From positions 1 through 64,000 of the forward strand of contig ML769488.1 in NCBI GenBank assembly GCA_009733575.1: DNA of 64,000 nt. The letters run 5' to 3'. Shown here one piece after another: positions 85 to 45,904 of the stretch. A program made the position numbers and the translations under genes. Under the pieces are notes generated by a model, which searched no databases, was not told where the DNA came from, and was given only the letters and a program-made list of their open reading frames with translations. The stretch's first letter is position 1. Each line of letters starts with the position of its first letter. This stretch comes from Gymnopus androsaceus JB14 (Eukaryota > Basidiomycota > Agaricomycetes > Agaricales > Omphalotaceae).

Positions 85-95
85 TAGCGAATTGA
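85..95. repeat. Left target-site duplication of the copy A insertion
   Basis: TAGCGAATTGA is repeated at 1150-1160. It contains the octamer AGCGAATT, which also flanks the KDZ transposon in copy B. Confidence 0.65.
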
Positions 96-1149
96 TAGGC
101 TCGTCCCCACCCGCTTCCAGATGTTGATGCGATCAACGGTCAGCCGGCTACGCGAGGCTTCCTCTGGAAACGGCTGGGCACCACTTGCAGTCACTAGTAG
201 GGTCACAAATTTGTGACTTTAACTTAGCGAAATTTTGATTTCTCCCCACCACTACCGCTGCATGAATCGCCTGTCCTCCCTCTTCCTGACTGCAAAAAGG
301 TAATTTATAAAGTGCTTATGAGTCTTGCTCACAAATATTGCCATTTATAGCCCTTTTAAGTAAATTGAACTTGCTGCAGCGATTCGGCAGCAATCTTGTA
401 CTGTCCAGGTAATATTGAGCCCGAATTTGGGATCTCAATGCTTCATTCTGTATCTCTGGATCATGGTAAGTTCATACAGATAAATACAAGGTAATCAAGT
501 GCTTTCCGACTCAATCATTGACAATTTATGGTGCTGAAGAGCACAATATTCACTCTCATTCAATGTCAAGGTAAGGAAGGATTGTTTCAATCTTGATATG
601 ACCTTTCCATACTCTGGTAAGTCTATTTTTCTTATTTTAAGCCTGTTCCGACCTCATCTGACTTCATTATACTGGATTTTCGGTGATTTTTGCATCAATA
701 TTCGGTTTTTCTCGCTCTAAAACTCTCTTATTTCAGATACGATGCTAATTTCGATCACGGAATACCCCCAATATCTTCTGGAATTACTCCGAGATTTGCT
801 TGGGCAAAAATCACATCAACATCACCAGATTTTGTGTCATTTTGGGCAATATCTCATTCCATGCATGTATTTTTCATCTTATACCTCTACAATATGGATA
901 TTCTAACTCTATGAGATGATAAAAGTCCATCCATAATAATTTTATAAGGGTCATGGCGGGGGGACAGAGTTCCGCACCAAAAACTCAGATTTCTCGAAGC
1001 AAAATTTCGCTAAGTTAAAGTCACAAATTTGTGACTCTATTAGTGACTGCAAGTGGTTCCCAGTCCTTCGGGAGCCAACTAAGCTGTCAAAGCGCATTTC
1101 AAATTTATTTGAAATAGGTGGCGACTGAACGGAACTGGCGCCGCGAGTC
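96..1149. mobile_element. Insertion in copy A, with an internal MITE-like element
   Basis: About 1.05 kb separates the two halves of the copy A exon. The direct repeat TAGCGAATTGA lies on both sides (85-95 and 1150-1160), consistent with a target duplication of 8 to 11 bp. Inside it, imperfect inverted repeats of about 60 bp (174-237 and 1003-1063) contain CCACTTGCAGTCACTA and the palindrome GTCACAAATTTGTGAC. They define a MITE-like element with no coding capacity. The outermost 80 bp on each side are not clearly inverted repeats, so the insertion may be composite, with one element nested in the remains of another. The KDZ inverted-repeat terminus seen at 19192 was not found at either end. 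Confidence 0.6.
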
Positions 1150-1160
1150 TAGCGAATTGA
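1150..1160. repeat. Right target-site duplication of the copy A insertion
   Basis: Direct repeat of 85-95. The exon reading frame of copy A resumes here. Confidence 0.65.
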
Positions 1161-1753
1161 GTTTGATTGCTGATCCAGAGTTGACTGGGATCAACTCTAG
1201 CACTCACTGGCCGCCGACTCCGAGCCATCTGTCTTACCAGGAGATTATTGACTTCGATTTCGTAGAAACACCCGAGCTGCGCGCCATTTACACATTCAGC
1301 GTTGACAACACTTATGTCCGATATCTCTTTTCTCTGCCTCGGTCCTCCAGCCATTCTTCCGACGCTCGCCTTGTCAGGGAGTACAACATCCACTCCGATC
1401 CAAGGATCTCCCCGGTGTCACTAAAAAGATCTCAGCGAGTTCTACATACAGAGCCTACAGATTTATATCCTTGGCAACACAAGATGACCAACGGATATCC
1501 TATCCTTGTAGACATCCGTGACATGTCACTTATTGTCTTCTTTTCTGACATGATGCCACACTCTAACTATTCGCACCCGAGTCTTGGACCACTGACACAG
1601 GACGAGGAATCGACAATGAGTGATACTCATGCACTGGTACTATCATTGGAGGGCACTCCATCATACCGCTTGGCTTCTTTGGCTTCTTTTGACAGGATCT
1701 ATGGGGTTGCAATTATCGGCAGGCCGGATAAGGTGTTGGTTGTCCAGTATTAG

Positions 1754-2266
1754 AACTTCTTACCTACATGCCTCACAGTTGTATAACTTGAACGTGTGCA
1801 TCGTATGGCTCGTAATGCGCTTCGACCGGGCCAAGAGTACAAATGACGCATCGAGATTTAATCTTGGCGCATATGCAGATCTATGCCCAATTAAAACCAA
1901 TGATCAAAACACTTTCGGGCTTATTTTCGGGAACTGTTTTCGAAGTTATCTTTTTCCACTTGACTTTTATTGACTTGTCGTTTTCCCACCCACAGAACTT
2001 TGAACTTGTAGGAATTTTTGTTGGATAAATAACTCATAGAATTCCACGCCGATGAGCCTGAATCAAGTATCAGTAAACTACCTGATACTTATCTGTTTCC
2101 TCCAATGCCAGCAATAACATCAACTGGTCGAAATCTAACCCAATCAAATAATGAAAGGAAGGGTCTGGACTGCTTGGAAAAGAATCTCAATCGTATCCGT
2201 GAATTGGTGAGCTGCACAATATTAATATCATCTTCTCGGTCCGAGAGGATGTTTGTTGAAGGAAGT
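1754..2266. other. 3' flank of copy A, no gene seen
   Basis: The first ~100 bases resemble the corresponding flank of copy B (about 30800-30870), so the duplicated family unit extends past the stop codon. The open frames here start on non-ATG codons or lack any recognisable domain. Nothing else is supported. Confidence 0.4.
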
Positions 2267-10471: not shown

Positions 10472-10704
10472 ATCTCCTTGAGCTACCCATCGGATGTTGG
10501 TTCCCTTTTGGAACTTGAAGTATTGCCATGTCTTGGTATCTAATCGTAATTCGGTAACAACGCCAAATTCTGTCCCACCGTATCCAGAAGTAACAGTGAC
10601 ACCTCGGGAGATGAGAGATTCGGCAATTTTGGGGGAAAGAGGTCCTCCACCGTAAGTCTAGAAACGGGAAGCGGTGTCAGAAAAGATTGATGATAAAGAG
10701 ATCT
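10472..10704. repeat. Left 233-bp copy of host reductase exon/intron
   Basis: Identical over 233 bp to 15578-15810. It spans the 3' part of an intron and most of the exon encoding TYGGGPLSPK to RWVAQGD of the adenylation domain. On this side it continues directly into downstream host exons, so it is host DNA and not an LTR. Confidence 0.9.
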
Positions 10705-13700
10705 CCTTTTCAAACCAGGTATCTTGATGAAGCGAACTTGAGTCTGTTGGACCGTCGTCGACTGTATCAACCTTGGAGAGGAGAATGTGCACTGCATACA
10801 TGTGGTTCAGACGATGAGGGAGACGAGGTCCAGATGTACGTGTACTCCTTCAATCCTAAACGTTTCACGCAGCTCAACATCATCCTTAGTCGACTCCTAG
10901 ATGCTGCGTCATCTTTGTTTAGGCTCACGGGCAAGAAACTTCCTTCCTTTCCGCATTGGGGAGATATTGGCGACGTAGGAACAGATTTTCTTTCGGAAAA
11001 TGATTTCGAAATTGTTGCGGTAGCCTATCGCGCTCAGGTTGAGCATTTCCTCACTCGTCTTGCCAGCGTGCATGATTTCCTTACCGGGACTATCCGCAAT
11101 GCTAACGATTTTGCAGAGGACTTCGCATACACCCCTTCTGCTGCAGTGAAAAGCACTCATAAACCGAAACCGAAACAGGAGAAGGAACAGGACGAAATTG
11201 GTGAATCTATAAGCACAATGGTACATACGAAACGCAAAGCAGAATTTTCTAGCTCTAACAAGTCTGCTAGAGTTTCTGTACCCCAATCTTCGGGTAAGCG
11301 CACTCAGAACATGCTTCCTCGAACTACTTGACGTCTCTCGGACATGTGGAGCGACGATGGTGAAGACATTGTTGCTGATGCAGGAGGTGAACCTGACCCA
11401 GGAGGCAACTCTAGTGATGACGAGGGAAGTGGAAGCAATAACGATGGCCACCATCGCCAACGCCGCGGACGTAACTCTCAGCCACCACAACCGCCTCAGG
11501 TCTCTCTTACGACCTCTCCAACTCTTACATCAGCATTGTCGACGAAATTCCAGTTTGACATGCGCTTAAAGTTTGACGCAGTTCCAACCTGGGACGGGGA
11601 TACTAATACCATTGTCAAATGGATCAACAAAGTTAACGACCTTGCCAAATACTCATCAGACCTGAGAAAGCAATTGGGAAGCGTTGTTCCAAGACGGCTG
11701 GAAGGCTCTGCAAGCACGTGGTTCTACTCTCTCCCAAAAGACCATCGTAACTTTCTCGAAAGAGATTGGAGGAATCTCCGAGAAGAGATTGCATTGTATT
11801 ATATGAACTGTCGCTGGATGGAAACCATGCGACGAAAAGGCAACACGTGCCTCTTATCGAGAATCCGGACATACTCGCGAAACCCCAAGTGAGTACTACA
11901 TCCGCAAGTGCGACCTGCTCACTACCGTTTACGAGCTGGATGACTCAGAGCTTATCATGGAGGTTATGGACGGTGCACCTACCAACTGGACTGTCGTTTT
12001 ATCTCCAAGGACTTACAAGACAGCTAGGGAACTGCAAAGCGCTATCCGATACTATGAAGATACACTCATGGATCTTGATCTGGAGTACCATCGTACTCGA
12101 GATGAGCGTGACCGCTCTAACCGCTACCAACCTAGTCGAACCTACCTCGTAGGTACCCAAAACGATCTACCTCCTCCAGCTTACCCATGCAACGATACCA
12201 ATATTTCCAAACGAGGAACACCGAAGTCAAAGGGTGCTCGACCTTGTCGCCACTGTGGAAGTGAGATGCACTGGGACAATGACTGTAAGTATTCTGCTCG
12301 AAACAGTAAGAATGCACGGGTTCGTCTTTGCGAGTCATCTACTAACGACCTTGTTGCACAGGATGAGTACGACGACGTATACTACAGCCTTCATGACGAG
12401 CCTACAGAGCAGGATTTTGAGTCTACCCTCCGGACTACCGAGAGCCAGGTCTTCCTTGCTCAGCCATCGGCCCCGGAGGGACTTGCAGTTCCTTCACTAC
12501 CCACTATCAATGCATTTCCATCCCCTTTGGACGCTCCTTCCACATTGGAGCATACCACTCAGGCCTTTTGGGTAGGTTCAACTGCTGCTCCCATTCCTTC
12601 CACTGATTTTGCGGACATTTCAGAATCTGCTAAATCTCCATCGGAGTCTCCGATCCGAGCCTTCCGAGTTGGTTCCCAGAGTACTAGCTGCCGCGAGCAT
12701 TTCAATAAACCGGCTCTGAATCGCCGCAGTCGTCGAAGACTTGCTTGGGAAGTTCAAGCAACAACGTTCGTGGTTAGGACATACCGTGGTATGTCTGTCG
12801 ACAAACCCCTACTGGAGATGAAACGACTAATGGCTCGGCCTCCAGGTTGCGCTTTTCTAGGATCTAGAGCTACAGAGACAGTGGCTACCATCAACGGGAT
12901 GGAGGAGGAGCTTAAAGTCATTGTGGACTCAGGTTCCGACATCACGCTTATCTCTCAGAAGGCTTTAGGTGCCCTATTGAGCAGACCTAAGATCCGGGTA
13001 GGGCAAAAGATCAACCTCATACAGGTTACAGGTAAATCTTCCATCTCCGGTTTTGTTTCTCTTGATTTATACTTCCACACAGCTCAGGGACCGGTGAAGA
13101 TGCTTGTTGAAGCTTACATTGTTGATGGGATGACAACTCCCTTCCTGTTAGGGAATGATTTCCAGGAGCAATACTCACTTTCCATTCTGAGACGGGATGG
13201 GCGTAGCTTTTTAACATTTGGTGAGACTGGTCGCAAACTTGAAGTTTCGAATTCACTCACGTCCGGTTTAGTGGACGATCAGGGCCACGCATTCAAGATT
13301 CACATCAACCGCGATGCTCTCAGCAAGATTCCGCGTCATTCCAAGCACAGGAAATCACAGAAGCTTCGTCGCCGCGCTCTGGATGCACAACAACGCGGTA
13401 ACATCTGTGCCATTTCTCGAACCACTATCCCACCTGAATCTTCCGTTTTAGTTCCAGTTCAAGCTCATTTCCCAAAAACGTGTGAATCGCTGTTTGTAGA
13501 ACGTTGCCTTCGCCACAACAGTAATCCAGATGATGTTTATGGCGCCGCTGACACCTTTATATCTCGCAACGACCCTCATCTACATGTTTCAAACTTCTCT
13601 AAGATTACGGTCACAATTGCTGCAGGGGAAGTACTCGGTACGTGCCATGATCCATGCAGCTGGCTTGATAAAGCTCATCGCATGTCCCAGGAGCTCAAAT

Positions 13701-15479
13701 CTCAAGCTCAGGCGCATGCGACATTCATCCGTCACCTTATTGATGCTCGCACAGCTACTGTCTGCTCCGAATCCACGATTTCGTCTAAAGCTCAGCAAAA
13801 TGCTTCTGGTGCTGACGACCCACTTGCGGAAGAACCCATAGAAGGTGGGCCCAAGACTTCCGAGGTAAGTTTTGAGAATGTACCCTCATCTCAGCTACTA
13901 ACGGAAATTCATGTCTCTCCAGATTTGACACTCAGTCAGCGAAGTGCAATTGAGCAAATTGTTCTTGCCAATAGCAGTGCTTTCGGACTTGATGGACGTC
14001 TAGGAAGTTATGAAGGTCAGATTGACATTCCCATGAAACCAGACGCTCAACCTGTTTCTCTTCCTCCTTTTCCAGTTTCACCGGCGAATCGGGAGGTCAT
14101 TGACAAGCAGATGGATTCCTGGTTGAGCTTGGGAGTCATTGAGCCATCAAAAAGTCCCTGGGGGGCTCCCGTATTTATTGTGTATCGCAACAATAAGCCA
14201 CGAATGGTAATCGATCTCCGTCGTCTTAATGCAAGTGGTTATTCCCGATGAGTTTCCACTTCCGCGTCAAGATGATGTCCTTCAGGCTCTTGAAGGGTCG
14301 CAGTGGCTCACAACACTAGATGCATTAGCAGGTTTTACGCAGCTGACCATGTCGGACAGTGCTGCGGAGAAGTTGGCATTTCGCTCACACCGTGGACTCT
14401 ACCAGTTCCGTCGCATGCCATTTGGGTACCGGAATGGGCCTAGTGTTTTTCAGCGTATAATGCAAGGAGTGCTCGCGCCTTTTCTTTGGGTATTCGCACT
14501 AGTCTATATTGACGATATAGTTATCTTTTCCCTGACCTTTGAAGATCACCTTAAGCACTTGGATCAAGTTTTCAAGGCCATTTCCAATGCTCGCATCACT
14601 CTTTCGCCGGGTAAGTGCCACTTTGCTTATCAGTCACTGCTGTTGCTTGGACAGAAGGTTTCACGCCTTGGTCTTTCTACCCACAAGGAGAAGGTTGATG
14701 CTATTCTCCAGTTGGATGAACCACGGAATGTTCACGAGTTACAAGTTTTTCTGGGTATGATGGTTTACTTTTCGGCCTACGTTCCTTTTTACTCCTGGAT
14801 TGCTCATCCGTTTTTTCAGCTTTTACAGAAGGGCACACCTTGGACCTGGACAGCACTGCATCGAGAGGCTTTTGAGCTCTGCAAGCAGGTTTTGACTAAT
14901 GCTCCGGTGCGGGGATATGCGCAGCGTGGGCTACCGTACCGACTTTACACAGATGCATGTGACTATGGCCTGGCAGGGATTCTTCAGCAAGTTCAACCAA
15001 TTCGAACAGGTGACTTGAAGGGTACGCGACTTTATGATCGACTCGTGAAAGCTTACCGCGCTAAAGAACCAGTGCCCTCATTAGTGACTCGCATTTCAAA
15101 GGATTTTGATGATGTGCCATCACCTTGTCAGTGGGATGCTAACTTTGAGGATACTATTGTCTACATTGAACGAGTGGTTGGCTACTGGTCGCGTGTATTG
15201 AAATCGGCAGAGCGAAACTATTCCGCGACAGAGAGAGAGGCGCTTGCATTGAAAGAAGCCCTTATCAAATTTCAACCGTATATTGAAGGTGAGCGAATTC
15301 TTGCTATCACGGATCATGCTGCTTTGACTTGGAGCACCACCTTTCAGAATGTGAATCGACGTCTTCTTACTTGGGGGACTGTCTTTACTGCCTACCCGGA
15401 TCTCCATATAGTTCCATCGCGCTGGTAAGGTTCATTCCAACGTTGACCCGATCTCGCGTTTGCGCCGTAGAGTTCCACC
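10705..15479 (+). pseudogene. Gag-Pol of the gypsy-type element, broken
   Basis: Gag begins around ATG 10834 and is cut by an in-frame TGA at 11329-11331. The frame resumes and encodes a retrotrans_gag segment (WDGDTNTIVKWINKVNDLAK). A frameshift near 11885 leads into the rest of Gag, with a CCHC zinc knuckle (CRHCGSEMHWDNDC, ~12240). The protease active site is VDSGSD (~12925). A second frameshift near 14235 splits the reverse transcriptase between its N-terminal fingers (MVIDLRRLNA) and the palm with catalytic YIDD (~14505). RNase H is recognised by LYTDACDYGLAGIL (~14945) and TDHAAL (~15310). Translation ends around PISRLRRRVPP. One stop and two frameshifts show that the copy is dead, although the host flanks are identical. 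Confidence 0.85.
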
Positions 15480-15577
15480 ACAGGAGAGCCCCGAATTATC
15501 TCACATAACTCCTATTCCTGCCTGCCGAGGAAGATTCTATCCGTAGCATGTATGAGGAGTTAGCCAGCTGACCATGT
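10705..15577 (+). mobile_element. Truncated Ty3/gypsy retrotransposon without LTRs or integrase
   Basis: About 4.87 kb runs antisense to the host reductase gene. It encodes Gag, protease, reverse transcriptase and RNase H in Ty3/gypsy order, then stops shortly after RNase H (VDPISRL) with no integrase or chromodomain and no recognisable long terminal repeats. Instead the fragment is flanked by direct 233-bp copies of host sequence. At the junctions the octamer ATCTCCTT occurs at 10701-10708 and 15578-15585. It could be a small target duplication or a microhomology used in joining. The element cannot transpose by itself. Confidence 0.85.
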
Positions 15578-15810
15578 ATCTCCTTGAGCTACCCATCGGA
15601 TGTTGGTTCCCTTTTGGAACTTGAAGTATTGCCATGTCTTGGTATCTAATCGTAATTCGGTAACAACGCCAAATTCTGTCCCACCGTATCCAGAAGTAAC
15701 AGTGACACCTCGGGAGATGAGAGATTCGGCAATTTTGGGGGAAAGAGGTCCTCCACCGTAAGTCTAGAAACGGGAAGCGGTGTCAGAAAAGATTGATGAT
15801 AAAGAGATCT
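15578..15810. repeat. Right 233-bp copy of host reductase exon/intron
   Basis: Identical to 10472-10704. On this side it joins the upstream host exon encoding TLRFM, with the intron GTTGGT to TTTCTAG reconstructed across 15811. Confidence 0.9.
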
Positions 15811-18510: not shown

Positions 18511-19183
18511 GCTTAAGCGCTAATTGTTGATTGGGCGCTTGTTCCCATAATCGCGCCTTGCTAGCAGCAGAAACGAAAGCTCAATCCATCCCTATTGGTA
18601 TATGCTCCTTTCAGAGACTCGTCCTTAGAATAGGATTCATATCACTTGTTCAAGTCAAATCTGACTGCAGATTGCGTTCCAGAATGGCTTCTGTTGTAAG
18701 TACTTATTCTCTTTTGAGGTGCTTTCGACCAGCCTGCTATCTCAATATTCAGATGAACAAACCATAGAAGCTTGCAGATACTCTATATCTGAATTCGGAA
18801 CTCTGGTCTCAAAACCCGTCATGGGCAATCATCTTTTCAATTTTATCATTGGCATTCTCGCGCACGCACAGTTGTGTCCCCCTACCGGATTGCAATTGCT
18901 CGAAGTTTACTGTCAAGGGATCACTCGTTGTCATATTGTCATATAATATGGTGGTAGCCTCCAGCTCTTCAACCGTCTAACCGATTTCAAGGTATGGCAG
19001 TGGATTGGAGTACGTGATCCATCTCAAGCAGCTCTATTTTGTTCCATTGACGAATACCCATCTGAAAGGACCCCAACATTTACATAGAAGAAGTTACCTT
19101 GCCATTTGAATCTTCTAGGTCTCTGGGTCGGCATTGCCATTGGTTACCCAGCACGTAAAAGGAAGCTCGGCTTTCCTATGAAT

Positions 19184-19191
19184 AGCGAATT
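19184..19191. repeat. KDZ target-site duplication, left
   Basis: AGCGAATT, identical to 30168-30175. An 8-bp duplication is the size known for KDZ-class transposons. Confidence 0.95.
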
Positions 19192-19316
19192 CACCTGTAT
19201 AGCCCCAAGTATATTATATGTACAAGGGAGAACCCCGTCGGTACATCCCTATGTAGATAAGTGGTTAAGAGTAAAGTGCCCTATAGTAGATAAATGCCCA
19301 TAATCGAAGGAACTTT
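19192..19316 (+). repeat. KDZ left terminal inverted repeat, 125 bp
   Basis: Perfect inverted copy of 30043-30167. It contains two internal GTAGATAA motifs that may be transposase-binding sites (inference). Confidence 0.95.
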
Positions 19317-19552
19317 GGACCTGAATTTACTATACCTCACTACTGTCGACATCATGTGACCATCGGGCATCAGTTCGGGCAGCGTTCGGGAGGTGCAGAA
19401 GGCCGACTTCAAAATACAACGCACATGGATTATAGACTATAGGTAATATCTACATAGATTAAGTAGTAGATTACAGCAAGATTACAACATCAATCGCAGC
19501 AAGAAGATCAACATGACAACAAGAGCAGCAGCCAGAGAAAACATCAATCATG

Positions 19553-22212
19553 CTAGTCTGAGAACTCGGCGTCACCCTCGTCATCCTCATCATCATCCTC
19601 CCCACCGTCAGACCCTTCATCCGAGCCATCCGAGTCGGAGACGACGAAGCGCTGGCTCTTCTTCTTCCCCTTACCATTTTTTGCAGCCGACTTCCTACTA
19701 CCTCCTGCACCCTCCGTCAACTTTTTGCTGCCTCCCGCAACCTTCCTACTCATCCCTGCGGGTGACTTCTTCTGGTTCCCGCCGGCCGACTTCTTCCCAC
19801 TACCCCTCGCTGACTTCTTAGCCCCTCCAGCCCCACCCGCCGACTTCTTAGGACCTCCTGCTGCCTTCTTGGCACCCCTGGTTACCCCAGACCTCCTCTT
19901 CAAGGGACGAACATCCTCCTCATCATCAGACCCTTCCTCGCCATTGTCACGCGCAGCTCTTTTACGCTTGGTCCCCTTGGCTGGACGAGCAAGCTCATCA
20001 TCCCTGCTGTCATTGCTGCCAGAGTCATCCTGCTGACCACGTTTCAAGCCTGCATCGCTACGCTTCTTCCTCACTCTAGGCTCAAGTTCGCCATTTTTCT
20101 CTGCCTCCTTCTCGTACGACTTGGCCTCTGCAGCGGTCATACGGTACCAATGTGCTCCACCCCCATTCCATGCGTCATAAAGCCTCTTGGTCTGATCAGC
20201 TGAGAGACGTTGAGGATAGGAGCGCGGGACATCGTCAGGCCAGCCCCTAACGTTGACCTTGTAGGGGACAACAATATTCTTGGAAAAGGAGACGTAGCTC
20301 ATCGTGAGGTTCACAACGCCTGTAATTTCCTCTAGAAAACCCAGCCCAACGTCAGCCAGAGCCCCCAATAGAAGAAAGATCGCTAAACAACTTACGGAGG
20401 CCTTGGGTGATCAGACGGACAATCTCACTCGCCATCTCACTTTGGTAGAGTTTCTTGTCCCAACTACAGAGGAGCAAGTCAATTAGCCATCTGTTAGCAC
20501 AAAACGAAAACAAAATTAAAAATACCTTTCTGCGCAGTAACAACAAAGCTCTTGTACAAGTTCACGATGTCTTGGACACCCATACGAAAGTACTGTCAAA
20601 AGAAGGCATCCGCGGGACCACGACCATAGAAAGCAGGCACAACAGTTGACTCGAAGGAACTGTGGACAGACCATGCCAAATGAATTAGCATCCGACGATT
20701 CGTACAAAAAGTCAGCCTACGAAATCAAATAATTGTCAGCGGAATACAGAGGCTCAACAAAACAGCCTTACCTCTTGTTGGAAGCAAGTTCATCTTCTCC
20801 GCTACGCTCTTTGCCTGAGCACGTTTGCTCACCCAGATAGCAGCGACCTTCTCCTCACTCTTCTCCTCATCATACTTCTGACAAAGGGATTTCATTGCGT
20901 CAGGATCATTGAAGATGTCCTGGAGGTCGTCGTCTTTCTTCACATGATTGTAAAGGTCCCTCAGCAGAATACGAGAGCCTTTATCTCAAGCTAAGACAGA
21001 GAGTCAGAAAAATCAAAAATCATTTGAGACTGTCTACTTACTAGAGTTCAGCTCCTTCCCCTTAAAGTACACCAAAACGTTATAATCGCTGGCCTTCTTT
21101 TGGGGCTTCATCGAAGGAAGTTGGTGAGCCAGTTTTTTGATACGGTCAACGGAGACGTTGTTAAGCTCTGCATACTTCGCAAAGAGCTCTTCTTGCTCCT
21201 CCAAAAGCTTGTCAACATTGGCACTAAGCTTCTCCAAGCGATCCTGAGCAGCTTGCCTCATAATCCTACACTCTTCTATGCCCATCTCCCGACCTTTTCT
21301 TCTTCCTAGGCGGCAAAGAAGCATCACCAGAGCCATCAACAGCCTCAGCAGCTTTGGACAAAGAATGTTCGCCAGCCACCTCAGCGTCAGAAGCACCACC
21401 ATTCGATGGAGAGGCCCCAGTCGTAGAGCCATCAACAGCTTCAGCAGCAATGGCCGAAGAACATTGGCCAGCCACCTCCGAGTCAGAAACACCGCGATTC
21501 AACAAAGAGGTCCCAGTCGATGCGCTGCCACCTGTATTTGCAGCATTACCAGGAACGCTGTCGCCTACGGCGGGACCAGTGGGAGTGTCAGGTTGACCAC
21601 GATCAGGAGCAGAAGAAGTATACGAGGCAGTGTTGGCAGCATTATCGTTTTGAGCTGCAGGAATCCTCCCAGCAGCATTGTCAGCTGCAGCAACACTTCC
21701 AGCATCAGATGGCCTGGAGGAGGGGCCATTAGAAGAGTTCGAGGTGTTGGTAATGTCGGTAAGCACCACACGCGCAGCTGCAGATGTCGCTGTGCAGGCC
21801 CTTGAAGGTAAAGCAACAGCGGCATTGTTTTCATCACCTCTGGCAAAAAGCCTAGTGCTGCGTGAAGGTTGATAATTTGGCTTTGACATAGACTGAGGCG
21901 CGCATAAAGCTAAAAAAATATAAGGTTAATATTCAAGTTCGACGGACTGAAGCATGAAAAAAACCGAAAAAAAGTAGACATACCTATAGCTGCAGCAGTC
22001 TGAGTTGAGACTTTGTTCAAAGCAGCGTTATTCTCAAGCTCCTGGCAATGAATCTGACTGGCATCAACCATGTCACTGTGCGGAATTGCGATCATGGGTC
22101 CTATCGGTGTGTCGTCCATTGTATCCACAGATTTCAGAGATTCTGCAAAGCAGAGAGAAGCCGTCGAAAAAATTGAGAATAAAAGAATAAAGCCTGGCAA
22201 ATAAACCGCCAC
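19553..22212 (-). pseudogene. KDZ cargo gene A: Lys/Gly-rich C-terminal protein, broken
   Basis: A multi-exon minus-strand gene. A likely start is ATG MDDTPIGPMIAIPHSD near 22120, possibly with an upstream exon to about 22330. It continues through a Ser/Ala-rich region (21310-21889) and a predicted helical segment (CRIMRQAAQDRLEKLSANVD, ~21200). Next comes DDLQDIFNDPDAM (~20920), then a block containing NVRGWPDDVPRSYPQRLSAD (~20230). The C-terminal tail is made of KKSAGG-type repeats, acidic at the very end. The GWPDDVP block recurs in uncharacterised proteins of agaricomycete genomes as I remember them; no function is known to me. A TGA interrupts the frame just after an intron (20986-20988), and a 1-nt shift occurs near 21275. 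The basic repeats suggest DNA or RNA binding, inferred from composition only. Confidence 0.6.
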
Positions 22213-22390
22213 CGAGCGAAGAGAAGCATCGCAGCTATACAGCTGCTAGTCAGCCACAGGTGAAGTTAGAGAAGCAGAGTTTACGTACCTTGCCACACAT
22301 TGAACTTGAACCACCATCCTGCCCACTTTTCCTCACCGCTTAGCCCAGTAAGCACGCCTGTTGAAACACTCGTTGACGTTGTTGATCAAA

Positions 22391-23498
22391 ATGACTGGTA
22401 AGACTTTTCATCAAACAATCATATTTTGTCTTTCCATGATATCATCAACGTCAACGTAACTGACATGTGGTCTTAGGCTTACCTTCAACTCCCACTCAAA
22501 AAACCTCCACCGAAGCTCGAGCCCGTCGCGACGCGGCAATCAAGCAGGCATACAAAGAAGAGGTCAAGAGTCCAGCTCGAGTAACTCACCAGGAGCACGT
22601 TGAATGAGTCCAGCAGCTAGAGGAAGTCAGCAAGCATGCCTCTGGTGAGATTCTTCAACTTCTAGCTTCACTCAGACCGCTAATTTTTCATCTTAGCTTT
22701 GCAGGAGCTCGAGAAAGCTTGAGCCAGGGCCCAGTACACGCTTCAAGATGCTGAAGAAGATCTTGAAGAAGCGTATGGCAAGGCCAGCGAGTCTATCGGT
22801 GAGCTTATTCTTCCTTCTGCAACAAAGTCTCTTCTAAACGCCGCTGCAGAAGGACTGGCGAGAACGTTCACACCTCCTAACACTCCTGCAAAGGCTCGTC
22901 GAACTGCAGGACCTCCCACTGCTCTTCCCATTGTGTCCAGCGGTCGCGTTGATCTTTTTGCAGCATTGCCTACCCCCTCCCCCAAAAAACTCGTCCTATC
23001 TCCTACGAAGACGATCACCAACCCTTACTACATCGTTTATCATGGCAGGGGAGGTATGCAGGGCATTTTTGACAGCTGGAAAAGTCGGGCGGATGACTAT
23101 GGCCCCGACTGTCTCTGCGATAGCTACAAGCATAGACTATCGAAGAAGTTCTCCGATGCCAACAAGGCTCGCATGTATTATGATGAGTGCCTGGAATCTG
23201 GTGTCCTTGATGTCCTCCGAGACGAGCCTTCTTCTGACGAGGTCTTGTTTGTCATCAAAGGCGCCCTGCCAGGTGTCTACACAAAGAGGTGAGCAGGCCG
23301 CTACTGTACCAATGCCTTGTCTGACAGTGTTTTTGTTTTGCTAGGCTTGCTTTCCTTATCAAAGGTCTTGTCTGGCGTGGCAGCGTTGTCATGGCTGGTA
23401 ACGGAACCCGAGCACAAGGAGATGCTCAGTTCAGACAATGGAAGGCCGCTGGCCACATCGAAGTCTTTCCTGCGAACGGTCCTCGCCGCCACTTCTAA
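22391..23498 (+). pseudogene. KDZ cargo gene B: RNase H1 N-terminal-like domain protein, two TGA stops
   Basis: ATG 22391 is followed by an intron after 7 nt (GTAAGA to CTTAG), a Lys/Glu-rich coiled region, a second intron near 22650-22695, and a Pro/Thr linker. Then comes a domain beginning NPYYIVYHGRGGMQGIFDSW and ending near DECLESG. Its YY-V-x-G-R...G-I-x-x-W pattern matches the RNase H1 N-terminal / caulimovirus VI-like hybrid-binding domain. A last exon (~23345-23498) ends with GPRRHF and TAA. Two in-frame TGA codons at 22605-22607 and 22720-22722 break the coiled region, both plausibly CGA Arg codons originally. The gene is divergent from cargo gene A with a short shared upstream region. 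The domain binds double-stranded nucleic acid or hybrids in known proteins; its role in transposition is unknown. Confidence 0.7.
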
Positions 23499-23729
23499 TG
23501 TAGCTTTGACAATATTATCAAAATTTGAACGTTCATTAAAATCTACAAACACTATATACAAGTAGTTGGTATTCTCAAAATCAATGCATTTTTTCTTGGT
23601 CAAACGAAACGAAACGAAACATATGGACATTGAACGGAGCAAATAAATTGACTTGATATTTGAGGAATTAAAAACTATGCAGCTAATCTGACAAAACGCT
23701 GTCTGCCTCAAAGGTCGCTGCTAATCGTC

Positions 23730-24428
23730 TTAACCCTCCACAGCGCCATCCTCTTGGCTACCCGCCTTGCCCTGAAGGCTGACACGCAACTTTGCCTTGC
23801 GAGGACGATAAGTCCACCAACCCACTTCTCCGTGAATCTTGACGAATGCACTAAGTCTAGGATTCAGTGCACATAGATTATCTGAATGTCGCAGAACCCA
23901 CCGCCAACATTTGGAATCGGCTTTCTTCAGAATGGCCTCTCGATTTCTGCAGGACAAACAAGCTAAGAATCTGCGGTAACAAGGGATTTTGAATACGCAC
24001 TTCAAATAGTGCTTTTTCGCCGTGGCCCTCCTACGCTCCTTGAATGCCTCATTCTCCTCCTCATTCATCTCAGCTCGGCCCCTTTGTAGAATAGGCATTA
24101 GAAAGATATACATATGATACAATAGATAGGAAGATATATGACAAAAAGTTTATAACAGAGCGCACTAGATGTAAAAGTCACCTACTTGCTCATGCGGTTT
24201 TTGGCTCCCTCATTCAAAGTCTCTTTGTTCCTAAACATGGTGAAGCGTTTATTAGGTTGACTGAAAGCGTACTAGCCTAGCATTATGGCTCTGAGGCAGG
24301 TAAAAATGCACGTACTTGAGCCTGTAATGCTTACTAGCGCACCTGGCCTTACGGAGACGAATATCCTCTTTGGCCTCCTTGGATTGCTCAGATTTTCGGA
24401 TGGCGGAATCTGTACGCAAGCGAGGCAT
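23730..24428 (-). CDS. KDZ cargo gene C: small basic protein, intact
   Basis: ATG 24426-24428 to TAA at 23730. Three GT-AG introns give one frame of about 140 codons. The N-terminal two thirds are rich in Arg, Lys and Glu, with repeated units of the type RxxAKKHYLKNREAILKKAD and ASKHYRLKNKETLNEGAK, predicted to be helical. The C-terminal third (WRWVLRHSDN to VGWWTYRPRK) has five Trp. Similar Y-x-x-N-R/K-E repeat proteins occur in agaricomycete genomes as I recall, without known function. It has no stop or shift, unlike three of its neighbours. It may be a DNA-binding accessory protein, but that is inferred only from its charge. Confidence 0.6.
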
Positions 24429-24842
24429 TGCAAGAGTGGTTTGGAGTGAGTTGGTAGGCGAGAGAGTAGCGTTGTGCTGAGAGATGCACAAAGTAAGAGT
24501 GAAGATGGGGTAAGTAAGCTTGTGGGAAATGCATGCATGTTCGCTAATTGTTTTGTGATCTGAGCAATTTCTTTTTAGATTTACTGGAAGACGCTATGTT
24601 GCGTTTCCTGCTCAATATTGATAGTAATACTTGTAGAAACTAAGTAGATAAACAACATATATTAAATATAGATTTTCTTGTTAACAACAGAGGCCATGGT
24701 GGGCAAAATACGCTGCAAAAGCTTGTTTTATGACTTTGTCATGTAAATGTACTTTGAGATTGAACGTCGACAAACGCACTCATGTTGGACTACTATGCCA
24801 GAAAACATTATATACATTGCATGTATACATACTGAAGGCTAC

Positions 24843-26299
24843 CTAGTCACATTGTAAGAGCTCTAGCCCGACCTCCCAAAGCTTGGCTCGACTTGCATTC
24901 CACGCCTGCACCTGTTCCACGCTAGCTCTTTCCTTATACTCCTTGTCGGACATGTATCCATTCTGATACCAGCGTGCCAGGCCAGCAGACATGAAGAACG
25001 CAATAGAAGAGCACATCTCATGGCCAGCAATTGGCGTATTAGCATGCGTAATGCATGCAGACGGGACGTACAGCGCACAGGCTGGAGGGAACTGGGTGAC
25101 AACACCAAGGCTCCAGGCAATGAAATGGCCGCTGCGAGTGTGGTCAAAATGACCTGAGGAGTAGACAGCACACATTCCAAAAAGTATGTTGTACCAATCT
25201 TCATGGTCCACGGTGGAAGCGTTGTGAAGGTTCAGATGGCAGGCGCTGTAGCAGCAGCCTTCAAACATCTGAGCGATTTCCGGATTATCGCCCAGAATGC
25301 ACGCAAGCAGGTTGCAATAGAAGAGATGTAGCTTGGGGAAGTATGCTTGAAGGCCTGCTAAAATACGCCCAAGTAAGCTAACTCGAGCCGTAGATAAAAG
25401 CAAGAAACACCCACCATTGACATAGCGAGCTACCCGCTGGATGGCTGGGTTGTCTAGAACAGCCTGAACCAGAGGAGCATTGTGCGCTGTGTTGGCATAG
25501 CTCCCTGGGCAGGTCCGTCCTCCTCCAAACCCGCAGCCTGCAGGAAGCGTCACGTAGCCACCCCGACGGTTGGGCTTATGAGAGGGTGGGATGCGAGCGT
25601 GATGACAGAGAGCCTCTAGCGTAGCATCCACTTTGGCAGCGTTTCGAAGCAAATCAGCACCGCAAGGTCGAGCAAGCAGCACCATCAACCTGTGTGCCTG
25701 CTCAGTTTGAACGACCACCAAGTTGCTAAGGCAGGCAGTTAGCGAGCCCACAGATAGAATAAGCCTAGAGCATACCTGCCGTCCCACTCTATCAGCTTCA
25801 GCCCTGACAGCTCAAACACCTCGCGACTAGAGACAACCTTGGCACCACTGGGTGTGAGCCTCCTTCCACTCCACGCATTCCACAAAGCGTTCATAGGCAG
25901 CAAAACTTTGACAATGTCAGCCTCAGCAATTCTCCTGCAAACTACGGCCTTGACGTGATCCCCAGAAGCATCCTGGGTGGCCCTTCGAGCTGCATGGCGC
26001 CGCTCACGATAGATGGCCTTCTGGTGCTGGAGACCGGTGAGACTAAGTGTAGCAGGTGCGGATGCACATGCACGCTTGCAAGGCTGTGACGGCGGAGCAA
26101 GGAGCTCATCTATAGGAAGTGGGTGGGCAAGAAGGGAGGAGAGCAGATTATGGCTGGTCAGCTTCTGAAGTTGCTGCTGCTTATGGGGGAGATGCCTATA
26201 GGTTTCGAAGGGGACTACCTCATCGCTTTCAGCCTGGGAGAATTGCAGCTCCTGCCTCAAGAGGCCGCCGCTGAGCAAGCTGGAGGCGCTGAAGCTCAT
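24843..26299 (-). CDS. TET/JBP-family 2-oxoglutarate/Fe(II) dioxygenase (transposon cargo)
   Basis: Reading from ATG 26297-26299 (an extra 5' exon is possible), two introns are removed: GTATGC to CCTTAG near 25725-25775 and GTGGGT to TTTTAG near 25358-25414. The protein has the fungal TET/JBP landmarks in order: LIEWDGR, GCGFGGGRTCPG, NPAIQRVARY, LFGMCAVYSSGHFD, SGHFIAWSLG, QFPPACALYVPSA, THANTP, and SAGLARWYQNGY. The iron ligands are present as HED (His 25203-25205, Asp 25197-25199) and the His of THANTP (25044-25046). The Arg expected 11 residues after that His, which binds 2-oxoglutarate, is Cys (codon 25011-25013). The family oxidises 5-methylcytosine in DNA. This copy lacks stops but may be inactive. 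Its 5' end faces the transposase across about 480 bp. Confidence 0.88.
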
Positions 26300-26774
26300 A
26301 AGCACAATATCCGGAGCTCTGGTAGCTGGGCTGAACTCTCGCCCACTGTGGAGAGTGCGGAAGCCGTCTAGAAAGAAGCAAGTTAGCGCCACAGAAGATA
26401 GATAGATGAGATGAGATGGCTTTCTGGAAAAAGGCGCAGCGGAGGGCAGCAAGAAAGCAGCCTACATCCCCAGGGTCGGGGTGGAAGGACTGCTGCATGC
26501 AACCAGAGCAGAGCAGCGCGGTGGCGCAGTGGCGCAAGCAAACGAAGTGCTAGAGATATTAAAAAAAAGACTTACAGCCGGAAGATAATTGGCCCTCAAG
26601 AGCCTCGTCGTAATTTTGACCTATCTTGCGCTTCATACGAGAACGCTAACGGTAGAAGAGGAAAGGAAAGAGGAAGAGGGTGAGATGGGCGCCTTTTAAT
26701 ACTTACAGGCGCTCAAAATCACATGAGCGCGATGAGCTCTCAACTTCAAGCTCAACTCAACCCAGCTCACCATC
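26300..26774. promoter_or_regulatory. Divergent region between TET/JBP and transposase genes
   Basis: About 475 bp separate the two ATGs. They could contain a bidirectional promoter, and on the TET/JBP side perhaps a non-coding or short 5' exon: a donor-like GTAAGT is present on the minus strand near 26573. No core element is recognised. Confidence 0.4.
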
Positions 26775-29700
26775 ATGTCCAATACATCTCGTTTTAACCG
26801 CCGCGTGCAGGCGTTGCAGGCCTCTAAACGTTCAAGCGTTAGCTCTAGCCGGAGACAGCGTGGTCCCGCCCACGGATTGCAAGGAGATGCAAATTCTCAG
26901 CAAAAATCTGGCTCTCAGGGCACAAGCTCTTTTTGCCACTCGCAAGTTCAGAAGATGCGGGAAAAAGGTGCAGCTGCAGAGGTCTGAGTGCTCGCATATG
27001 ATTTTCCTGAAGTAGCTGTGGCTCAGGAATATCCTCCTGCTCGCACGGATGAGCCAATGCCCTACGCTGCACCTTATGGCGAGTTTGGCAGTAGCTACGA
27101 TTGGCTCAACCAGGCTTCTGATGGTGATGATGAGGAGGTAGAGGAGGAAGATACTGAGGTTGAAAAGACAGCCCAGAAGGTTCGAGTGGAGTATTGTGAC
27201 TTTCGGACTAAACGGCAGCGCATGGATGCAAGCAACAAGAGCTGGGAGGAGCAGAGGGAGGGTATGGTTGACGCCTACATGGACTGGTGCATCAAGAAGA
27301 CAACGGGAGAGGTCTTGCCTCCGTGCAATAAGCCATTGCTATGGGTTGATGTGGTGGATGTTTTTGGTATGTGGTCTTATGGGGCTATATTACAACACAG
27401 CACTAATGTATAGACCAGGTACTGAATACAGAGAAATCCCCCGCACGAACGATAAGTTTGACTCAGCTAGTCTGATTCACTCTGGCATCCTTCCTACGTC
27501 GCCCCTGAAGCATTCTGTTGGATTCACTATCTGCACCATTAGCCTCTACCACAACCTGTTTGTGCGCTGTCCCCGCCTAGGAGTTCAACCGTTTGCAAGA
27601 ACTCTTTGCAATCTCGAGGGGGTTGCTTTCCGCCCATATCTCTCCTCCCAGATCTACACTGCCCTTGATGTTTATGTCTCCCTTCTGAATGGCGTCCGAA
27701 AGCGCGTCCGAGCTGCGTTGGGGCGACAAGGACGAAATTGGCGAATGCTGAACACGTGTCCTGCCTGTCAGTATTGACTTCACGAGGACAATGAGCTGGA
27801 CATTCGAATGATAGTGCAGATGGATGGTAATGATTCTCTGATGAGGGTTGAGCGCAAGGAAGACCAACTGGCTGATAAAGAGGAAGCAGGCATAGAGCTT
27901 CCACCTGCTAGCAGGGAGAGGATCGACCGCCGTGTTGCCGGGGAAGATTACTTTGCGTCTCTCGAGGAAACCAAAGTTTGGGACAAGAGTAACTGGGCAA
28001 CTATAGAGGAGACGAGCTCCGGAGCTGATGCTGCTTTGCTTCAGCATGTCTGGGCTGAGGGACATTGTGAGGAGCGGTGGCATAACATGAAGGAGGGCAA
28101 CACCGTCAAGTCTGCAGCAAAGTTTCGAGAGAACGGTTGGTTCGTATTACTCTGTCGACACATGATGGTCCTTGCGGTCTGTGACATGGTTCAAAGCGGC
28201 AAGCTGTAGGTGTTGAGCACTCTTTCTCTTCTTTGGCTGACTTTTTTTTTTTTCAGCGCTCGATATCCTCTGGCCTTGTTGCATCTGTTCATGGCTGCTG
28301 AAAAGGAGGATCGTGACCGCAATAATGAAGGAAGGCCGAAAGGGAGCCTTGCCGTCGCCTATGATATTGCCTGCAAGTTCTCAAAGACAATTTCACAAAG
28401 TCTGCTCAAAGGTCTAGCTCAATGGTCCAACTATCTGCCTGTTGTTGGCACTATGCATGGATACGCTCACGAGTGTCTCTGCCAACTCCTCTTCCTGATG
28501 CTCTATGTTGTTGGGTGCGGTCTCGAGAATGGCGAGGGTGATGAGCGCTTTTTTAATGTGTCGAACTCTCTTGCGCCGATCACGCGTCACCAATCTACGT
28601 TCCATTGTCGACAGGCGATATCCGAATTCCTATACTACAAGGATATTGAGACGTACGCGAACATGAGCAGATTTCTATACAGAAACTACAAGCAGGCCCT
28701 TGGAATCACTTCTACTCGAGATGCATTGAGCACAAGTATGAAGACTGCGGGAATCACTTCTGCTCAGGTGTTTTACGACTGGCTAGTGGAGGAGGGGGAA
28801 TATCTACGCAATCTCTGCAGCACCCCGCCGCAGGAGACTGTTCAAATGGAATACTACTTGAAGTTGGAAGCTTTGCGGAGCTGTCAGTCCCACTTGTTGA
28901 AGCTTCGTCAGTCGTACATTGCCTACGTTGCTGAGGGGCGGAACTCAGGGAGCATTTACAAGAGAAAGCATCGGAACGAGGAGGAAAATGAGCGAAAGCT
29001 CATCTCTGATGTTCAAGCCCTGGAAGCATGTCTGAGTGTCGAGGTGAGGTGGGTTGAAGGATGTGACGAATGGATTCAGGCAAAGAAGATGGTGAAGGAG
29101 GCTGCATATCGCAAGGCTTTAGATAAACTGGAGCGCCTGCTGGTGGCTTGGATGTTTGAAATGGCAAGGCTGAATGTCTCCAGCACTGGTGAGCTGCCTT
29201 AGATGTTTTTTCGGGACTTTGATTGCTGATGTTCTATTCCTCAGGGTATAAGATGCGTAAACACATTGGGCAGTCCCTCAAGAACCGTTCCAAGTCCATT
29301 CAAAGCGCCATTGTCAGCTATAACGAAGCGGCTGCTGCACTCAATCCACCTCGCCAGAAGATCACTTGGGACCAGATTGTCGACTTCTCTTATTTGTCGG
29401 AATTTGACATTCTTCGCGACACTCGTGAGGATGTTTGCAAGAGAAAATGGGCAACGCCACAAAATTGTCTTCTCATGACACGATTCTTCAAATATATTTG
29501 AGCGGAGGAGGAACTTTCACGGGTTCATGTGGAAGTGAAGAGGCTTCTGACTTACATCGTCGATGAGGAGAAGGAAGTGTGTGATAAGGCCAGAGAGGTG
29601 GAGGCAGATGATCCGGCCCTTGCTTTGCAGCTCCGTCTCTACTGGAGAGAACAATCTCGCTTCAATGCCCTGCACAGATCATGCCTGTTTGCAATTACAA

Positions 29701-29900
29701 AGCTGAAGGGCTTCAATCATGCAAACCATCACTACTGGGTGATCGGTTCCCACGTCACACACCAACGGGGGGATATCAAATGCATGGAGGACGGGGCGGA
29801 GGGTACAGGAGGGTGGGAAGAGGAGGAGGAGGAGGAGGAGGTTCATGACTTTGAGAGCCGTGTGACGGCTGTTTTGGACATGACCTTTGACAAAAATTAA
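26775..29900 (+). pseudogene. KDZ transposase, three in-frame TGA stops
   Basis: ATG 26775 follows CTCACCATC. Exons, separated by introns at ~27366-27418, ~28206-28258 and ~29190-29244, encode the KDZ transposase core. Landmarks: LLWVDVVDVF, SVGFTICTISLYHNLFVRCP, NWRMLNTCPACQY, IVQMDGNDSL, FRENGWFVLLCRHMMVLAVC, AYDIACKFSKT, GYAHECLCQLLFLMLYVVG, ENGEGDERFFNVSNSLAPIT, YANMSRFLYRNYKQALG, and SYLSEFDILRDTREDV. These include the conserved acidic and Cys/His positions of the family. In-frame TGA codons at 26985-26987, 27775-27777 and 29499-29501 interrupt it. The last lies at a position that is Arg (...RAEEEL) in relatives as I remember them. The C-terminus ends in a Glu-rich run. Everything else stays in frame over ~1000 codons, so decay is recent and limited to point changes. 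Confidence 0.92.
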
Positions 29901-30042
29901 CATTTGTACCTATGTCTGCATGTATTATACTCCATATGTTGTGATTGGTATTATGCGCCTCCCGAACGCCATCTGTAGTGACGCCAGACAGTCCCATGAC
30001 GTCACTCAAGTCATCAAAGGTAGCGTATACTAAATCTTGCCT

Positions 30043-30167
30043 AAAGTTCCTTCGATTATGGGCATTTATCTACTATAGGGCACTTTACTCTTAACCACTT
30101 ATCTACATAGGGATGTACCGACGGGGTTCTCCCTTGTACATATAATATACTTGGGGCTATACAGGTG
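30043..30167 (-). repeat. KDZ right terminal inverted repeat, 125 bp
   Basis: Perfect inverted copy of 19192-19316, ending in ...CTATACAGGTG. Confidence 0.95.
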
Positions 30168-30175
30168 AGCGAATT
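30168..30175. repeat. KDZ target-site duplication, right
   Basis: AGCGAATT, matching 19184-19191. The host exon reading frame continues from here. Confidence 0.95.
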
Positions 30176-31321
30176 AAGTTCAATTGCTGATCCAGAGTTG
30201 ACTGGGATCAACTCTAGCAGTGACTGGTTGACTCCGAGCCATCTGTTTGATCAGAAGATTATTGACTTTGATTTTGTAGAAACACCTGAACTACGCGCCG
30301 TCTACACATTCGGTGTGTCAACACTTACATCTGATATCTGTTTTCTCCGCCTCGCTCTCCCAGCCATTCTTCTGATTCCCGACTCGTCAGGGATTACAAC
30401 ATCCACTCTGATCCAAGGATCTCCCCGGTTTTAGTGAGGAGCTCTCAGCTAGTTCTACATGCGGAGCCTCCCTTGAATTTGGCACCTCCCCTGCAGCACA
30501 AGATGACTGGCGGATATCCCATCCGTAGACATCCGTGATATGCCACTGATTGTCCTGTTTTCTAACATGATTCCAAATTCTGACTATTAACCCCTGAATC
30601 TTGGACCGATGATGCAGGATCGCAAGGAATCAATGACAAGTGATGCTCATGCACTAGTACTAAGTATCATTGGAGGATGTCCCATCATACCATTTGGCCT
30701 TGTGGCTTCCTTCAATGGTATCTATGGGTTTGCAGTTATCGCCAGACCGGATAAGGTGTTTTTGTCCAGTATTAGAATGTTTTACTCGCAGTTGTAATAT
30801 ATGAATTGAGCGCATGCGGCTCGTATGATGCGCTTTGACCAGGCCAAAAGTAGAAATGGGGCCCATCAAGATTTATACACAATGATTAACTGAAACGACT
30901 AGAATGGAACAGATAGAGCACTTCTAGCTGAAGAAAGAAGTGAAAAGAATCCATCACTCGAGTAACAAATCGCATCAGGACCTTCATTATAGAACATCCT
31001 CAGCTCTCCTCTTGGCAGTATGAGATCTACATGGAACATTTTCTCGTGCTCTCCATCTTCAATATGCAAAATAAACACAAATTTCGAAAGAGAATCAGGA
31101 ATACGACGGTATTCAAGGATGTCATTCTTGGTTACCTCCTCGTGGGTGGGAGGAGAATGAGCCTGAGCGTTTGTTCTAAGGCCCAACTCCCTGACCAAAA
31201 GAGGATGTGGATTCTTTGGAATAACAGTGTGCGAGGGTGCATACTAGTGATGACCACAACTATACAGCTTTTGCTAGTTGTTTCACACAGGAGTTTTTAT
31301 ACAGCATACTGCATCTGTGTT

Positions 31322-44182: not shown

Positions 44183-44394
44183 AAAACTTGATTGGCACAT
44201 CGTGAATACTTCTTATGAGCAGTTTCCGAGCCAGGAATTTTGATTAGAATTCCAAGATCGTCGATCCCGGCTCTGAGATCTGATTCCCGGAACGTTCAAT
44301 GCAGAACTAAGTAATCAATACAAACTCAAATTTACATGGACCGCGGAGGTACATAAAGCCTAGTATATGGTGGTCAAAAGGGTGAAAAAATAAA

Positions 44395-44605
44395 ATAGCA
44401 CGCGCTCACTAATTATTGCACGCTCACTCACTGATTATTGCCATGCGCGCTCACACATTAGTTATTGCATTCGCGCTCACTCACTAAATTATTATGCGCT
44501 CACACACTAATTATTGCATTTGCGCTCACTCGCAAAATATTGCGCACTCACTCACTGAATTATTGCACGCTCACTCACGTATTATCGTGAGTGCACTAAT
44601 TCTTA
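44395..44605 (+). repeat. Left tandem array of the foldback element
   Basis: About nine imperfect copies of a ~22-bp unit (GCTCACTCACTAATTATTGC), each varied by small indels. Confidence 0.8.
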
Positions 44606-45609
44606 TTGCTTGTACTCAACTTGTAACTAAATTTCTTAGTACCGGGCCGTTCCGAAAGGTCCAAATAGTCATGTGATGGCTATACGGAACGGGATCGGAG
44701 TGGGGGTGAAATCGAAGGTGAATTCCCTTGAATTCCTCTGCAGTTATTCTTGGAATACTCAATGTAGGCAAAGAGTTTAAATTGTATGTTTAAAAAGGAA
44801 GCCATACCTGTTACCTTTGTCCACCCAGTCGAGAACCAGATACAAGAGGTTGAATCGTGAGATGAGTGTCGGGAAGGTCAATGTTCCTTGTATTAGGCAG
44901 GTCTATACCATGTTTGGACCTGATGGGCTTGGCAAGCGAATGGTCTAGGGAGAACATGGTCTGGGGACTCGGGACTCGGGAGTTATGGTGAAAGTGGACG
45001 TCCGAGTCAGCTGACTGCCATGCTGGCAAACGGCATCATGCGGCCGGGCATTGGCGTGCCACGTTGCCATGTCAAAGTTTTCCCATCCTGTCGTTCTTTC
45101 TTTCGTCGCTGCTTTCCTCAGGCTCCTCCTCATATTCCCCATTCGTCTTGCCAAATTCAACGTTCTCTGCCCGGCTGGACATTGTATTCGGATATCACTA
45201 ATTGCGTTGGGGGCTCTTCAAAGGTGCGTTACCAATTCTTTCGTCAGAAAACCTTTCTCATCACTTCTTTTCTTCAGTGTAGTTCCAATTGTACCTTCAA
45301 TACAGAATCATTTTCCCGGCAGACACTGCAATGGTTATGGGCCCAACTTCGATGCTAAAGTTTTCTTCTCCACTGAGTACCTTTGTTCTACCAATGAAGG
45401 AAGCAATTCGGCCGGCGATCATTTTCCATAAGCAGAAAGAGAAGTATGATGGCGCCTACTGAGATGGTCCCTGTTGTTTGCCTTCCCTGTAGTTCCATAT
45501 CTTCCTTAGTTCCATAGTCCTTACTGGTACTAGTTTGGTTTCCTTGAAATCCAATGCTTATCTTGAACAATACAGCCCTTGTTATCTTGCACTTGAAAGA
45601 TCCACTGAC

Positions 45610-45825
45610 ATCTTTAGCATGCAATAATAAGTGAGCGAGTGAGCGTGCAATAATTAGTGAGTGTACAATAATTTAGTGAGTGAGCGCGCAATAATTTAGC
45701 GAGTGAGCGCGCAATAATTAGTGAGTGAGCGCGTAATTTGGCGAGTGAGCGCGCAATAATTAGTGAGTGAGTGAGCGTGCATGGCAATACTTAGTGAGTG
45801 AGCGTGCAATAATCAGTGAGCGCGT
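45610..45825 (-). repeat. Right tandem array of the foldback element
   Basis: The inverted counterpart of 44395-44605 (unit GCAATAATTAGTGAGTGAGC), about nine copies. Confidence 0.8.
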
Positions 45826-45904
45826 GCTATTTTATTTTTTCACCCTTTTGACCACCATACTAGTATGACTCATATTTATATCATTGCTTCTTACATCCAT
45901 CTTC

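Follow-up and report, generated by a model that had tools for sequence, protein, structure and literature searches.

A KDZ-superfamily transposon with a probable TET/JBP-like dioxygenase cargo in Gymnopus androsaceus, in a copy decaying mainly at CpG sites

Introduction

A genomic link between TET/JBP dioxygenases and KDZ transposons has been published (Kojima 2025, PMC12730594). In that account, AG-type TET enzymes carry Gly or Ser and Asp at the positions of CcTet Gly331 and Asp337, PE-type enzymes have HxE instead of HxD, and two characterized families of the Kyakuja lineage have 7-bp target-site duplications (TSDs), CA..TG ends and no terminal inverted repeats (TIRs). Additionally, the KDZ1-3 elements of Cryptococcus neoformans, for which mobility was seen in the laboratory, are ~9-11 kb long, with TIRs of 241, 139 and 169 bp, a TSD that measures 8 bp in KDZ1 and 4-8 bp in KDZ2 and KDZ3, and transposases that combine KDZ and CxC1 domains (PMC12810828). 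Here we describe an element of 10,976 bp, delimited by end-to-end comparison at positions 19192-30167 of a 64,000-nucleotide stretch of Gymnopus androsaceus JB14 DNA (contig ML769488.1, positions 1 to 64,000, assembly GCA_009733575.1; hereafter the window). We conclude that it is probably a KDZ-superfamily cut-and-paste DNA transposon with a TET-like dioxygenase among its cargo, present as a copy that is decaying mainly at CpG.

The element appears to belong to a known kind, the TET-carrying KDZ transposons, and its architecture resembles that of Cryptococcus KDZ1-3 in size, long TIRs, TSD and a KDZ transposase, perhaps also in its CxC1-like region (PMC12810828). It differs in that those elements come from another fungus and the window copy is interrupted; it also has a dioxygenase-like gene (gene D), and the word "dioxygenase" is absent from the main text of the Cryptococcus paper. 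With TET-carrying Zisupton and Dileera elements it has in common a KDZ transposase and probable TET/JBP-type cargo, and its 8-bp TSD is also that of Zisupton and of Zisupton-1_PGr of the Dileera lineage (PMC12730594). TET-carrying Kyakuja elements with AG-type enzymes, relatives of CcTet, likewise pair a KDZ transposase with a neighbouring HxD dioxygenase, also in Agaricomycetes, and end in CA..TG. PE-type TET/JBP proteins of transposons, including those of Gymnopus confluens, are very divergent and were found by structure-based comparison (PMC12730594).

Results

The termini, the TSD, the KDZ domain, the multicopy family and the common cargo genes of the element are established. Its left 125 bases are identical to the reverse complement of its right 125 at 125/125 positions, with the first mismatch at base 126, and a repeat finder returned inverted arms of 137 nt at 96% identity. 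The ends are CA..TG, and AGCGAATT abuts the element on both flanks, which confirms the perfect 125-bp termini and 8-bp duplication claimed by an earlier, sequence-only reading of this DNA. TIRs with an 8-bp TSD, as in Zisupton and Cryptococcus KDZ1, are features of the KDZ superfamily, and the window element has both. No Rfam family was found above its gathering score.

The recognizable KDZ transposase proposed in the same reading was also borne out. In gene E the KDZ domain (PF18758) lies on two exons that score 70.3 and 98.7 bits against a curated cut-off of 26.6, placing the protein in the superfamily, and a CxC1-like (PF18802) region scores 20.1 bits in the window and 23.7 bits in copy C65, both below the cut-off of 26.9. 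On terminal features the Kyakuja lineage was rejected: despite its CA..TG ends, the element has 125-bp TIRs and a TSD of 8 bp.

A genome search with the terminal repeat had been suggested from the sequence alone, and it revealed a multicopy family. Across 83.3 Mb in 934 contigs, a query of the left 201 bases of the element gave at least 40 terminus matches (a lower bound, as 40 of 43 candidates were scored); two are the element's own ends, leaving at least 38 elsewhere, and among the matches scored two of these have 98-99% identity and 36 have 69-83%. Inward-facing terminus pairs within 15 kb occur on ten contigs, the window contig counted. Both ends are intact in eight of these ten elements, with one broken end each in C65 and C393, and six of the eight have an exact 8-bp TSD (window, C560, C169, C555, C187 and C342), which is absent from C227 and C225. 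Therefore, the window element belongs to a family that is old and varied.

Open frames for five genes (Table 1) are common to the window element and its diverged copies, which upholds the suggestion of further cargo genes. Gene probes detected gene A in nine of the ten paired-terminus elements, gene E in eight, gene B in five and gene C in four. Comparison of cargo among copies gave a mixed answer, as genes are indeed common to several paired elements, but gene D is present in only three of the ten, with a relic in C225. Thus, the dioxygenase is optional rather than universal cargo.

Table 1. Features of the KDZ element and its flanks (window positions)
Feature	Position	Strand	Basis
Target-site duplication, left copy AGCGAATT	19184..19191	.	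flank read
Left terminal inverted repeat, 125 bp, starts CACCTGTA	19192..19316	+	terminus comparison
Gene A, multi-exon, no assigned function, Lys/Ser-rich acidic tail, exon borders approximate	19556..22120	-	dN/dS, copies
Gene B, weakly RNase H1 N-terminal (Cauli_VI)-like	22464..23497	+	Cauli_VI scores below cut-off
Gene C, small basic protein, no assigned function	23733..24430	-	dN/dS, copies
Gene D, probable TET/JBP-like 2OG-Fe(II) dioxygenase, borders approximate	24846..26630	-	residue pattern, wider family
Gene D main exons, plus short first exon	~25742-26380, 25419-25718, 24846-25361	-	approximate borders
Gene E, KDZ transposase, CxC1-like region; TGA stops in frame at 26985, 27775 and 29499	26736..29900	+	Pfam, stops
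Right terminal inverted repeat, 125 bp, finishes TACAGGTG	30043..30167	-	terminus comparison
Target-site duplication, right copy AGCGAATT	30168..30175	.	flank read

The insertion locus itself has a diverged duplicate (77-85%) at window positions 2-1860, corresponding to 19109-19191 and 30168-30875. This duplicate is broken at the same place, AGCGAATT, by a different repeat that is unmatched to the window KDZ element, so two different insertions occurred at one site in two paralogues. A 1.06-kb repeat lies at about 96-1150 with AGCGAATTGA on either side; it has 110 matches in the genome (40 scored of 95 candidates), five of them, itself included, full-length or nearly so at 97-100%.

The sequence-only reading had named gene D a TET/JBP dioxygenase, and this claim stood in part. 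Direct recognizability was rejected: no relevant Pfam family was matched at an E-value (E) of 10 by the window protein or by its four closest homologues, PDB sequence searches returned no TET chain, and an NCBIfam search gave nothing relevant. What stood is a dioxygenase-like cargo protein that looks like a 2-oxoglutarate (2OG)-Fe(II) dioxygenase by its HxD..H..R pattern, and that has Tet_JBP matches in its wider family. An iterated search, seeded with an alignment to which remoter homologues encoded in this genome had been added (8000 candidates, E<=0.01), found 301 proteins of the dioxygenase family, 120 of them listed, spread over many Agaricomycetes. Among 83 aligned proteins (of 122) scanned at E<=0.1, 2OG-FeII_Oxy_3 was matched by 26 and Tet_JBP by 16, and each of the other 12 families scanned by at most one. 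The best Tet_JBP match was that of protein P0029 (E 1.2e-6, 28.3 bits, PF12851 cut-off 34.9), which spans residues 268-411 and covers the HxD at 341-343, the His and the Arg; precomputed Pfam annotation assigns PF12851 to P0029 and P0081.

Catalytic residues are highly conserved in this family. Among readable rows of the 83 homologues, the first His is kept in 82/82, Asp in 79/82, the second His in 83/83 and the 2OG-binding Arg in 80/82, and in gene D the spacing is 51 from Asp to His and 11 from His to Arg, which resembles the 48 and 9 given by CcTet residue numbers. HxDxxN is almost invariant among family members. In human TET2 the HxD residues are H1382 and D1384. The same protein carries N1387 (PMC11040006). 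Counting from the ligand Asp rather than from a structure, so that insertions could shift the register, D+3 is Asn in 82/82 and D+9 is Cys in 81/82. Assignment to the AG (CcTet-like) type was rejected on this Asn and Cys, and to the PE type, with its HxE, on an HxD found in 79/82 (HxN in 3/82). The dioxygenase residues thus depart from the AG and PE keys, and the element from the 7-bp TSDs and TIR-less ends of the two characterized Kyakuja families (PMC12730594). Set apart from both types by their published descriptions, the Asn/Cys pattern may be new.

From the wider-family matches and the HxD..H..R pattern, we suggest that the gene D family is probably of TET/JBP type. It is unlikely, in our judgement, that gene D instead encodes a non-TET 2OG-Fe(II) dioxygenase with another substrate, such as protein, RNA or methylated adenine. 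That alternative draws on the greater number of 2OG-FeII_Oxy_3 than Tet_JBP matches, on the lack of any family match above cut-off where scores were given, and on the listed UniRef names, two of which start Prolyl 4-hydroxylase while one says Fe2OG dioxygenase; against it stand P0029, whose match to Tet_JBP outranks every other listed match to a 2OG-type family, the almost invariant HxDxxN, and a genomic link to KDZ elements that is the one published for TET/JBP (PMC12730594). As a separate observation, P0027, P0029 and P0081 match the phage family phrog_24024 of PHROG, which has no assigned function (best E 1.5e-5, P0027), and which may be a phage relative.

The genomic link was quantified with 121 exon-level dioxygenase matches, of which 97 were left after 24 further-exon rows were removed by hand and merged into 96 places, and with 150 of the 161 KDZ matches in the genome, merged into 139 places. 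A KDZ place lies no more than 6 kb away from 45 of the 96 dioxygenase places and no more than 12 kb away from 53 of them, against 1.9 and 3.8 expected under uniform placement, an expectation that overstates significance where transposons cluster.

Coding evidence was sought in ratios of nonsynonymous to synonymous change (dN/dS) between window frames and diverged copies, several of which could not be calculated owing to saturation at synonymous sites. These ratios appear to back the transposase and dioxygenase genes well, at 0.08-0.20 for gene D and mostly 0.03-0.30 for gene E (one exon at 0.48 against C187), and both genes are backed by homologues in addition. The 3' exon of gene A gave 0.11-0.25 against C65, C225, C227 and C187 where computable, and its low-complexity exon (21269-21925) up to 0.53; gene A has no convincing Pfam match, and its low-complexity part contains a 96-bp tandem duplication (80% identity, 21329-21520). 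Gene B may weakly resemble an RNase H1 N-terminal domain, with Cauli_VI scores of 13.5 bits in the window, 17.4 in C65 and 16.2 in C225 (cut-off 21), and its dN/dS is 0.13-0.19 in the main exon, 0.28-0.30 in the last and 0.10-0.56 in the first parts. Gene C, with no convincing domain match and values of 0.33-0.39 for 23733-24149 and 0.48-0.70 for 24255-24593, is the weakest of the five gene calls, its second exon being poorly supported by dN/dS.

The window copy is structurally complete, and its coding content is decaying, mostly by CpG changes. At all three in-frame stops of the transposase, the compared copies (three at the first stop, two at each other) have CGN Arg codons, and gene B has in-frame TGA at 22605 and 22720. 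Gene D retains HxD and His in the window, with Cys in place of the 2OG-binding Arg (codon inside 25002-25025); the codon is TGC here, CGC in C544, CGA in C65 and GGC in C227, and Arg is present in all 16 homologues readable there. The change from C to T at CpG fits the Arg replacement and four of the five stops, the stop at 22605 being ambiguous (CAA in C544 and C227, CGA in C65). With these stops and the Arg replacement the window copy is not a good reference, and the earlier description of it as one, which implied an intact element, did not survive. In CcTet this Arg binds 2OG and the R385A mutant is dead (PMC11040006), and the window copy alone probably neither transposes nor oxidizes 5-methylcytosine (5mC).

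Comparison with the near-identical copy C544 shows how strongly CpG dominates this decay. The two differ at 328 of 8,297 aligned bases, 194 of the differences being CpG transitions, at a rate of 0.221 per CpG-containing site versus 0.0135 for other transitions. When changes were polarized at sites where C65 and C227 agree, CpG transitions made up 45/61 on the window branch and 49/103 on the C544 branch, 39 and 40 of them, respectively, in the C-to-T or G-to-A direction. The observed/expected CpG ratio stands at 0.88 across the rest of the window, against 0.70 within the element. Such CpG-heavy change is as expected for methylated DNA, which is consistent with methylation but not proof of it. 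Active hypermutation like repeat-induced point mutation, or sequencing or assembly error, could also have produced the inactivating changes in place of slow methylation decay, and a mild TCG excess agrees with this (5' T in 73/194 mutated CpGs versus a rough background of 117/465 plus-strand CpGs in the window copy). We regard that explanation as decidedly unlikely, as mutated CpGs occur in all four 5' contexts, CpG transitions are similar on both branches, and random error would not pick out CpG.

Loss of the catalytic Arg recurs among paralogues. From 44 retrieved matches came 42 non-redundant places in which the core could be read: all 42 retain both His ligands, 39 the Asp, 28 the Arg and 25 all four residues; likely active TET genes were reported in similar proportions, 32/47 in Coprinopsis and 47/74 in Laccaria (PMC8889193). 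Twelve of the 14 lost-Arg codons are CpG-transition products of CGN, and the remaining two, in C227 and C803, are GGC. Loss also affects two further conserved Arg positions, in 9/25 and 8/42, always to CpG-transition codons; in all these counts related copies are entered separately and are not independent events. Because conserved Arg residues elsewhere in the protein disappear in a similar way, the simplest reading is codon mutability in generally decaying copies, with nothing special to the catalytic site. Special selection for loss of the catalytic Arg, leaving a non-catalytic DNA-binding dioxygenase useful to the element, would account for 14 of 42 paralogues lacking Arg with His ligands retained. 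We nonetheless rejected it as very improbable, as the loss rate of this Arg does not exceed that of other Arg codons, and His codons have no amino-acid-changing CpG transition.

Elsewhere in the window, identical 233-bp direct repeats (10472-10704 and 15578-15810) enclose what looks like a young long-terminal-repeat retrotransposon at 10472-15810; an open reading frame between them (14211-15428) has a YIDD motif, which we take to be reverse-transcriptase-like. Inverted repeats of ~210 bp at 86% identity bound a 1.5-kb unit at 44366-45859, which may be a further small element with terminal repeats.

Discussion

We favour a cut-and-paste transposon whose movement would be driven by the KDZ transposase, acting on the 125-bp TIRs and cutting with an 8-bp stagger. 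Where intact, gene D would encode a TET-like dioxygenase that oxidizes 5mC on copies of the element, and this could ease its silencing by CpG methylation. The window dioxygenase has apparently lost a needed Arg through the same methylation-linked mutations that enzymes of this kind are presumed to counteract, and the window copy would move or gain protection, if at all, only through enzymes supplied by other copies.

Several observations pull the other way. An empty insertion site was not found in the assembly, where the joined flanks matched only their own locus and the diverged duplicate at the window start. For gene D, besides the PDB searches without a TET chain, a Tet_JBP profile search of the genome gave a single weak place, elsewhere and below cut-off, and no Tet_JBP match, of the window protein or of the family, reaches the curated cut-off. 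Antisense frames sometimes have low dN/dS too (for example, 0.08-0.18 at 28044-28190), and therefore dN/dS supports the gene calls without proving them alone. Against C544, two parts of gene D have dN/dS of 0.54 and 0.81, so constraint on recent copies is weak. Finally, a control duplicate of host sequence also has a CpG excess, 0.337 versus 0.119, a smaller ratio taken from an older pair that is 20% diverged and offers only 685 sites.

A further proposal is offered tentatively, as a possibility that we ourselves doubt. The KDZ-borne dioxygenases of this genome, which have relatives in many Agaricomycetes, might form a fourth, undescribed TET/JBP-like type, recognizable by HxDxxN together with an almost constant Cys at D+9 where CcTet has its Gly/Asp pair; the Asn, by analogy with N1387 of human TET2, would give a preference for 5mC over N6-methyladenine. 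Copies whose methylation went unreversed would then lose the CpG-bearing Arg codon soonest, and element families would keep the enzyme only while it works, a self-limiting feedback of methylation on the cargo that opposes it.

Transposons whose cargo includes an enzyme that acts on DNA methylation offer a natural test of how genomes defend themselves and how elements respond. In the Gymnopus androsaceus genome there are dozens of dioxygenase-like places, some retaining the catalytic Arg and others lacking it, and many of them adjoin KDZ transposases; one pair of copies, at least, bears a clear record of CpG mutation. Whether such cargo protects the element that carries it becomes measurable from sequence together with methylation maps.

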